DNA of 64,000 nucleotides from positions 1 to 64,000 of the forward strand of contig DASSJF010000077.1 in assembly GCA_035691305.1 (NCBI GenBank). Direction: 5' to 3'. This DNA comes from a bacterium. Its GTDB lineage: Bacteria > Sysuimicrobiota > Sysuimicrobiia > Sysuimicrobiales > Segetimicrobiaceae. Below the pieces are notes generated by a model. It did not search any database. It had not been told where the DNA came from and saw only the letters and a list, made by a program, of their open reading frames with translations. Of this stretch, positions 15,151 through 41,057 are shown one piece after another; positions within the stretch are counted from its first letter, which is position 1; each line of letters starts with the position of its first letter. Both the position numbers and the translations under genes were made by a program.

Positions 15151-16290
15151 ATGGGCGCGCTGCGCCGTGTCCGCGCCGTGATGCAGAAGGAGCTCGCCGT
15201 CCTCCGGCGCGACCGATTCTACCTGTTGATGGCGGTCGGCTTCCCCTTGGTCACGATGCTGCTGATGGGCTACGGCATGAACTATGACGTCCGGAACGTG
15301 CCCCTCGGGATCGCAGACCTCGACGGAACGGCCGAGAGCCGCGCACTCACGGCGGCATTCACCGCCTCCGGCTATTTTCGTCTCGTCACGGCGACCCGCA
15401 ATCCGCGGACGTTGGACGACGAAATGGCGGCCGGACGGATCCGCGCCGCGATGGAGATTCCCTCCGGTCTCGGCAGGGCACTCGCCGCCGGACGCGCCGC
15501 CGCGGTACTGCTGGCGGTCGACGGGTCGTTGCCGCTGCGCGCCGACATCTCACGAGGCTACGCGGCGGCCATCGTGGCCCGGTTTAATCAGGACCGGCTG
15601 GCCGCGGCGGCCCTCCGCCTTCCGGCGGCAGCCGCCGTTCCCTCGCTCACGGTGGAGAGCCGGATCTGGTTCAATCCGACGCTGGACAGCAACAACTTCA
15701 TGGTGCCGGGGCTGCTCGTGATCAACCTGCTGATGTGGCCGCCGATCCTGACCAGCCTCACGGTCACGCGGGAGAAGGAGTCGGGCGCCATCCTCAACGT
15801 CCAGACCGCGCCGATCGCGGGATGGGAGTACGTACTCGGCAAGCTCGTGCCCTATGCCGGTATCTCGTACCTTACGTACTGGCTGCTGCTGGCCTGCGCG
15901 GTCTGGCTGTTCCACGTGCGCATGCTCGGCAGCCTCGTCGCGCTCAGCCTCGGGGCGCTCCTCTTCGTGATCGCGACGGCCGCGATCGGACTCGTAGTCT
16001 CCGTCCTGGTTCGCACGCAGGTAGCGGCGCTGGTGGCCACGGTGGTCGTCGTCATGGTGCCCGGTATGGAATACTCCGGCTTCTCGGAGCCGATCGGCAC
16101 GCTGGATGCGAGCGGACGTGTGATGAGCCACCTCTTCCCGGTCGCGGATTTCATGTTCCTGGTCCGGGGGGTCTTTCTCAAGGGCTTCGGCCTCGCGGCC
16201 GGGGCGGACAGCCTCCTGCGGCTGGCCGGGTACGCCGGCGCGGCCGTCCTGGTCGCGACCCTGGCGTTTCCCAAACGGCGGAAGCGGTGA
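15151..16290 (+). CDS. ABC-2 type permease (YbhS-like)
   Basis: 379 aa. One N-terminal helix (FYLLMAVGFPLVTMLLMGYG), a large extracytoplasmic domain of about 150 residues (DLDGTAESRALTAAFTASGYF and following), then five C-terminal helices starting at MVPGLLVINLLMWP. TREKESGAILNVQTAPI is the conserved coupling helix region of ABC-2 exporters. It starts three bases after the ATPase stop and pairs with the following permease. Confidence 0.9.
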   Translation: MGALRRVRAVMQKELAVLRRDRFYLLMAVGFPLVTMLLMGYGMNYDVRNVPLGIADLDGTAESRALTAAFTASGYFRLVTATRNPRTLDDEMAAGRIRAAMEIPSGLGRALAAGRAAAVLLAVDGSLPLRADISRGYAAAIVARFNQDRLAAAALRLPAAAAVPSLTVESRIWFNPTLDSNNFMVPGLLVINLLMWPPILTSLTVTREKESGAILNVQTAPIAGWEYVLGKLVPYAGISYLTYWLLLACAVWLFHVRMLGSLVALSLGALLFVIATAAIGLVVSVLVRTQVAALVATVVVVMVPGMEYSGFSEPIGTLDASGRVMSHLFPVADFMFLVRGVFLKGFGLAAGADSLLRLAGYAGAAVLVATLAFPKRRKR

Positions 16291-21152: not shown

Positions 21153-21590
21153 ATGCGAATCGAAGCACGGTGGGCGTCCGGCATGCGGTTCGAAGCCGTC
21201 ACTCCGGACGCCCTCGGAATCGTCATGGACGCGCCGCACGGTGGGACGGCGGGCGGCCCTACGCCGATGGAGGCGCTGCTGATGGCGCTCGCCGGCTGCA
21301 CCGGGATGGACGTCATCCCGATCCTCCAAAAGATGCGCGCGCCCGTGGACCGGTTCACGATCGACGTCACGGCGGAGCGGGCCGATACACATCCCAAGGT
21401 GTTGACGGCGATCCACCTGCGCTATGCCGCCGCGGGGCCCGGTCTCCGCCGCGAGCAGGTCGAGAAAGCGGTCGCGCTCTCGCAGGAAAAATATTGTTCC
21501 GTTTCGGCGATGCTGCGCAAGGCGGTGCCCATCACGTATCAGACGGACGTCATCGACACCGGCGTCGCGCCGCTACCCGCGGTCAGTTGA
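21153..21590 (+). CDS. OsmC-family peroxiredoxin-like protein (Cys form)
   Basis: 145 aa. The first catalytic Cys is in MALAGCTGMDVIPILQKM (about residue 50) and the second in QEKYCSVSAMLRKAVPI (about 115). These give the OsmC/Ohr dithiol used to reduce organic hydroperoxides or persulfides. GAGGTGA precedes the ATG. It is a useful Cys-containing comparison for the second OsmC homologue at about 40.5 kb, which has TGA at the first Cys position. The 275-base stretch upstream (20876-21152) has no gene and contains a GC palindrome at about 21107. Confidence 0.9.
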   Translation: MRIEARWASGMRFEAVTPDALGIVMDAPHGGTAGGPTPMEALLMALAGCTGMDVIPILQKMRAPVDRFTIDVTAERADTHPKVLTAIHLRYAAAGPGLRREQVEKAVALSQEKYCSVSAMLRKAVPITYQTDVIDTGVAPLPAVS

Positions 21591-40511: not shown

Positions 40512-40973
40512 TCATTCCTCGGTGATCTCCCAGGCGTGGGAGATTTCGACGCAGCCCTTCAGCGTCTGCGCGACCGGGCAGCCGCGCTCGAAGACCGCGA
40601 GCGCGCGCTCAGCGTCGGCCCGCTTGCCCTTCGGGATCTTGAGATGGTATGTCACACGCATCGTCGTGAGCTTCATGACACGGTCCGGCGCCTCGATCGT
40701 GCCCTCCGCTTCGGTCCAGAGCTTGTTCGGGTAGCTTGGAATCCCGCGCGCCTCCAGCGCGCCCGCGAGGGTGCCGGTCAGTCAGCCGGCCGCGGCGCCC
40801 ACCAGGTGATCGAGCGTCGCCGGCAGCTCTTCCTCGGGCTCCATCTTGTAGAAGTCCTTGATGCCGCTGTTCACGCCGTACCGGACCGGCTCCGGAAAGT
40901 TGCCGAGGTACGCGCGCCGGTTGGGCCGTTTCTCCTGGTAGACGCGCGCCCGCGCGAGATGGACGACACTCAT
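40512..40973 (-). CDS. OsmC-family protein with in-frame UGA at the catalytic Cys position (probable selenoprotein)
   Basis: 153 codons if the TGA at 40782-40784 is read as selenocysteine (residue 64). Before it: MSVVHLARARVYQEKRPNRR to LDHLVGAAAG. After it the same frame continues with no other stop: LTGTLAGALEARGIPSYPNK through FERGCPVAQTLKGCVEISHA to a normal TGA at 40512-40514. AAAG-U-LTGTL aligns with MALAG-C-TGMDV of the OsmC gene at 21153, so the UGA replaces the peroxidatic Cys. The second catalytic Cys (about residue 132) is present. A perfect hairpin begins 20 bases after the UGA (separate entry). GGGAGG precedes the ATG. No selA/selB/selC is in the window. A nonsense mutation or sequencing error is possible but would have to hit exactly this codon. 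Confidence 0.82.
40746..40762 (-). promoter_or_regulatory. candidate bacterial SECIS hairpin
   Basis: On the mRNA strand GCGCGC-TGGAG-GCGCGC forms a perfect 6-bp stem with a five-base loop. The loop starts 26 bases after the UGA and carries G at its second and third positions. Bacterial SECIS elements lie directly downstream of the UGA inside the coding sequence with a G near the start of the apical loop. SelB binding is inferred. Confidence 0.65.
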
Positions 40974-41057
40974 GGCGTGCCTCCCTTCGTGGACGAGATA
41001 CGGGCCGAGGGTGGCCGAGTCGTGTACCCCTATGATAAAGCGACGGACGGCGGACGG

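Follow-up and report, generated by a model that had tools for sequence, protein, structure and literature searches.

OsmC-like selenoproteins were reported in 2005, when a survey of the Sargasso Sea yielded three sequences with the motif UxxT (PMC1088965). An OsmC-like selenoprotein was found again in GOS (PMC2398784), and the UxxT form is included in reviews of 2022 (PMC9312934) and 2026 (PMC13188914). In Ohr, the first cysteine attacks the hydroperoxide and forms a disulfide with the second, with a lipoylated protein as the reductant. Catalysis is assisted by an arginine and by a glutamate 10 residues N-terminal of the cysteine, the glutamate at -10 being a feature of the Ohr/OsmC peroxidases and not of the whole fold family (PMC5962072).

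Here we describe a predicted OsmC-family selenoprotein gene found in a 64-kb stretch of DNA (hereafter the window) from the genome of a soil bacterium of the phylum Sysuimicrobiota. Like the UxxT proteins and NCBIfam family NF041052 (OsmC_like_Se), its product belongs to PF02566, is predicted to carry selenocysteine (Sec) at a catalytic position and has a predicted bacterial SECIS element past the UGA. It differs from the UxxT type in its motif, U-[LM]-T-G-T, with glycine rather than threonine at +3 in all 21 orthologues, and its N-terminal half is unlike that of the UxxT and NF041052 proteins. With NF041052 the window protein reaches 15.3 bits (cut-off 95), and the best E-value among 16 orthologues is no better than 1.6e-6. 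Because OsmC-like selenoproteins were already reported in 2005, the novelty implied by a preliminary description of this DNA is reduced. Given that the subfamily falls outside NF041052 and has its own motif, we count it as a variant within a known kind; within the open-licence literature, the U-[LM]-T-G-T branch appears not to have been described before.

A conserved UGA within an OsmC reading frame

The gene occupies positions 40512-40973 of the minus strand, including the stop codon, and encodes a predicted protein of 153 amino acids. A single frame runs for 63 codons from the ATG (40973-40971) to an in-frame TGA (40784-40782) and continues for 89 codons to the true terminal TGA (40514-40512). 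The preliminary description was exact in its 63-residue fragment, 89 downstream codons and 153-residue product, and in giving the TGA as the sole interruption before an ordinary stop, although it did not state the strand. A likely ribosome-binding site, GGGAGG, judged from the sequence, precedes the ATG (40980-40985, minus strand), and most orthologues have a G-rich element in the same place. Elsewhere in the window, the only TGA with a coding signature on either side is at 16288 (plus strand), between two long frames. It looks like a normal gene end followed by the start of the next gene in one frame, and was rejected as a selenoprotein codon.

We searched for orthologues in 43 genomes of the order, which are all 43 returned for the phylum Sysuimicrobiota, and found the subfamily in 21. 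In every orthologue the frame is broken just once, by a TGA at the equivalent codon, and is open on both sides; in the alignment of homologues that the preliminary description had proposed for this position, codon 64 is UGA in 21/21 and cysteine in 0/21 orthologues from the 43 genomes. Identity to the window protein ranges from 51 to 93% (15 orthologues aligned with it), and the relatives with proteins 81-85% identical include ‘Terrabacteria group bacterium ANGP1’, which NCBI places in Candidatus Sysuimicrobiota. Purifying selection is similar on both sides of the UGA: pN/pS after versus before it is 0.12 versus 0.08 for the nearest relative and 0.12 versus 0.13 for the next. Relatives of the cysteine form were absent from the plasmids, phages and viral contigs searched, and the classical Cys/Sec pair is available only against remote paralogues of about 30% identity. 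A UGA thus lies in frame at a catalytic Cys/Sec position that is conserved, and homology continues on both sides of it.

If the UGA were a real stop, the locus would be a pseudogene, a sequencing error or the gene of a 63-residue peptide. Automatic annotation would indeed call a 63-amino-acid open reading frame, and SECIS-like hairpins are not rare by chance in the window. Nevertheless, the same UGA recurs in 21 separate assemblies from several families, selection and open frames extend to either side of it, the second catalytic cysteine is invariant, and a 63-residue fragment would be without most of the OsmC domain. We therefore consider a real stop very improbable; sequencing error and pseudogene in particular are excluded, because UGA stands at codon 64 in every orthologue throughout the phylum.

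Upstream of the gene lie an enoyl-CoA hydratase family gene (298 amino acids) and a gene resembling an S1-type RNA-binding protein, and downstream are a small gene for a zinc-ribbon protein and one resembling a dehydrogenase gene; the S1-like and downstream assignments were judged by eye. Several genomes belonging to the same family keep parts of this gene order, and the neighbourhood gives no clear pointer to function.

The hairpin and the selenium machinery

A predicted bacterial SECIS hairpin (40746-40762, minus strand) starts at base 20 after the UGA. It has a 7-bp stem (GCGCGCU/GGCGCGC) and a GGA loop, and the distance from the UGA to the apical loop is 26 nt. The 6-bp hairpin with a G-bearing loop noted earlier at this spacing is present, as GCGCGC(U)-GGA-(G)GCGCGC. 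In loop size, loop G and spacing it agrees with the bacterial SECIS model, which has a loop of 3-9 nt with a G among its first two bases, placed 16-37 nt past the UGA (PMC13188914). By itself, the hairpin is weak evidence, since an equally good one follows 185 of the 1233 TGAs in the window (15%), and we rejected it as stand-alone proof of Sec in so GC-rich a window; equally good hairpins also occur in 21% of arbitrary GC-rich 72-mers. In unconstrained single-sequence folding, the SECIS-like hairpin is not always the minimum-energy structure, the window's own sequence included, and an Rfam scan of the 64-kb window gave no match over the cut-off.

What raises the hairpin above chance is the UGA in 21/21 orthologues together with the near-absence of synonymous change at the hairpin codons. 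The 20 close orthologues invariably use GGC for Gly+7, GCG for Ala+8, CTG for Leu+9 and GCG for Ala+11 (20/20 each). Arg+12 is CGC or CGT, which gives a G-C or G-U pair, and variation between GAG and GAA at Glu+10 turns the closing U-G into U-A; within codons +7 to +13 there is also GGG/GGA variation at a glycine. The codons flanking the hairpin vary synonymously, unlike those within it; when synonymous entropy was scored in 136 windows of eight codons, the four lowest values belonged to windows that begin at codons +4 to +7 and cover the hairpin. At synonymous sites, no other part of the gene is as constrained as the hairpin codons. Most stem pairs are invariant, so the support comes from frozen codons and not from compensatory changes. 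The stem has the same position in 20/21 orthologues; the most distant one (L043) has another sequence at this site, in which a 7-bp hairpin is still possible in the allowed range.

The source assembly (3.58 Mb, 96% complete) contains the full set of genes for Sec insertion. Contig C69 clusters selA (552 bits) and selB (336 bits) with a nearby tRNA-Sec (68.7 bits, anticodon UCA), and selD (393 bits) lies on contig C40 (C40:8198-9118, L053). The absence of selB or selC, which the preliminary description had named as grounds for giving up its reading, accordingly does not apply. selD is itself a putative selenoprotein gene, with an in-frame UGA near the N-terminus (MVACAGUASK) at what we take to be the Sec/Cys position of SelD. 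Among the 21 genomes with an orthologue, selB is over the cut-off in 18 and tRNA-Sec exceeds 60 bits in 17; one or the other is over the cut-off in 19/21, the remaining two genomes being incomplete bins (68% and 87% completeness).

Read-through in several genes of the genome (the window OsmC, selD and a second OsmC) might also be expected if UGA had been reassigned genome-wide, for example to tryptophan or glycine, in which case the residue would not be Sec. UGA is still a stop in this genome, however, because the OsmC gene itself terminates in TGA, as do several orthologues (the complete ones end with TGA or TAG). Moreover, the read-through UGAs found in the genome sit at catalytic Cys/Sec positions, the Sec machinery is complete, tRNA-Sec(UCA) included, and the 64-kb window shows no further in-frame UGA of this sort. 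Reassignment is accordingly the least credible reading of the codon, with almost no probability left to it. We infer, with high confidence, that Sec is inserted at UGA codon 64 of an OsmC-fold redox protein.

Fold, catalytic positions and predicted chemistry

The read-through protein matches the Pfam OsmC profile (PF02566) over residues 53-145, spanning the UGA, with an E-value of 5e-13 and 49.7 bits (cut-off 27.5). Its AF2 model has a pLDDT of 84.9, and the best PDB matches of the model are E. coli and Thermus OsmC, with a probability of 1.00; both the profile match over the curated cut-off and the fold place the protein in the OsmC/Ohr superfamily. When a profile of 16 orthologues was compared with solved OsmC structures, residue 64 (codon 40782-40784) fell in the column of the catalytic, peroxidatic cysteine (AGCFSM in Thermus OsmC) and Cys132 (codon 40578-40580, minus strand, invariant) in that of the second, resolving cysteine (GCPVS). 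Alignment with E. coli OsmC and the paralogues likewise puts Sec64 and Cys132 in the two catalytic columns, one of which may hold Sec in this superfamily. The earlier placement of the UGA at the first catalytic cysteine, with the second retained, is thus borne out by structures and paralogues alike. With the 21/21 conservation of the codon and the Sec machinery, these alignments support the main reading of the preliminary description, an OsmC-family selenoprotein with UGA at the peroxidatic cysteine.

The window protein shares the fold and both catalytic positions with E. coli and Thermus OsmC (PDB 1QWI, 1NYE and 1UKK), at about 19-24% identity by structural alignment, and differs from them in having predicted Sec for the peroxidatic cysteine and Leu-Asp for the glutamate pair at -10/-9. 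The Ohr/OsmC catalytic glutamate at -10 is hence replaced by leucine, followed by an invariant aspartate at -9, and two N-terminal arginines are invariant among the orthologues. The same genome encodes another PF02566 protein, at 21153 in the window, with cysteine at both positions. The preliminary description had used it as the cysteine form for comparison. Its Pfam match confirms a real Cys-type OsmC paralogue, but the tree assigns it to a different subfamily (a YhfA-like group), and we rejected it as the direct cysteine counterpart of the window selenoprotein.

We propose that SelB, bound to the hairpin about 20 nt past the UGA, would deliver Sec-tRNA(Sec) at codon 64, and that the selenoprotein would take up the OsmC fold, which usually forms a domain-swapped dimer. 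From the central helix, the Sec64 selenol may then attack a hydroperoxide or a sulfane/persulfide substrate; the resulting selenenic acid would be resolved by Cys132 as a selenenylsulfide, which an intracellular dithiol of the lipoyl or thioredoxin type could reduce. Such a two-residue Sec/Cys redox cycle is very likely, and the protein is most likely a Sec-based hydroperoxide or persulfide reductase, which may, as the preliminary description suggested, owe greater speed to its selenium. An organic hydroperoxide is the predicted main substrate, a choice that we favour with some reserve. These gradings reflect a predicted Sec as the attacking residue, the invariance of Cys132 and of the two arginines, and the replacement of the glutamate. 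Substrate and rate are not transferable from Ohr, because the catalytic glutamate is not kept, with the invariant aspartate at -9 in its stead.

Alternatively, Sec may be inserted into a protein other than an organic hydroperoxidase, either one whose target is a persulfide, a disulfide or some other electrophile, or a selenol-based thiol oxidoreductase. This would fit the loss of the Ohr glutamate, an N-terminal part that differs strongly from OsmC, and neighbours (enoyl-CoA hydratase and zinc-ribbon/dehydrogenase genes) that are not peroxide-stress genes. It sits less well with the fold, both catalytic positions and the nearest profile (OsmC family peroxiredoxin TIGR03562), all of which are OsmC. 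We regard it as a substantial possibility, albeit somewhat unlikely.

Predicted selenocysteine in other OsmC groups of Sysuimicrobiota

Scanning the phylum with the Pfam OsmC profile revealed five further groups in which UGA encodes a catalytic position. Two of them exceed the NF041052 cut-off and so are of the known kind: group E, whose motif FUILTQ conforms to UxxT, with 164 bits, and group B (FUEEVQ) with 128 bits. Groups C and D fall below the cut-off. Loci L080-L088, L098 and L103 make up the UGA-bearing groups FUEEVQ, AUINVS, TUTAVT and FUILTQ. In the FUEEVQ group, the hairpin is weak, with 5 bp or absent by our criteria. A TGA inside a further OsmC gene (L079; genome G042, contig C19) lies away from the catalytic columns and lacks a hairpin; it was rejected as a Sec codon and is probably an ordinary mutation, an error or a pseudogene.

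Group F has cysteine in the first catalytic column and UGA, the predicted Sec, in the second, with a motif close to RUPLYRTVAVAT. It comprises 13 genes (L089-L094, L095, L096, L097 and L099-L102), one of which is in the source genome (G000, contig C79:17032-17304, L095). Past the UGA there is a hairpin of 6 or 7 bp, in most cases with a GGUC loop, at which synonymous codons are frozen. The group is not recognised by NF041052 and, within the open-licence literature, appears to be an unrecognised one.

A tree of 112 OsmC proteins requires a minimum of six changes of the Sec label. Well-supported branches force four of these; long branches make some of the deep joins uncertain. One fold with Sec on either side of the redox pair would imply two different catalytic logics. 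On balance, we lean towards an unrecognised radiation of OsmC selenoproteins in Sysuimicrobiota, consisting of the Sec-only window group outside NF041052 and the group with Sec at the second position.

Ordinary annotation would truncate or miss the OsmC selenoprotein gene wherever it occurs in the phylum. The findings extend the list of OsmC selenoproteins past the single UxxT type of the reviews. Group F is at least as interesting as the window subfamily, and the two form a natural pair for comparing the benefit of Sec at the attacking position with its benefit at the resolving position.
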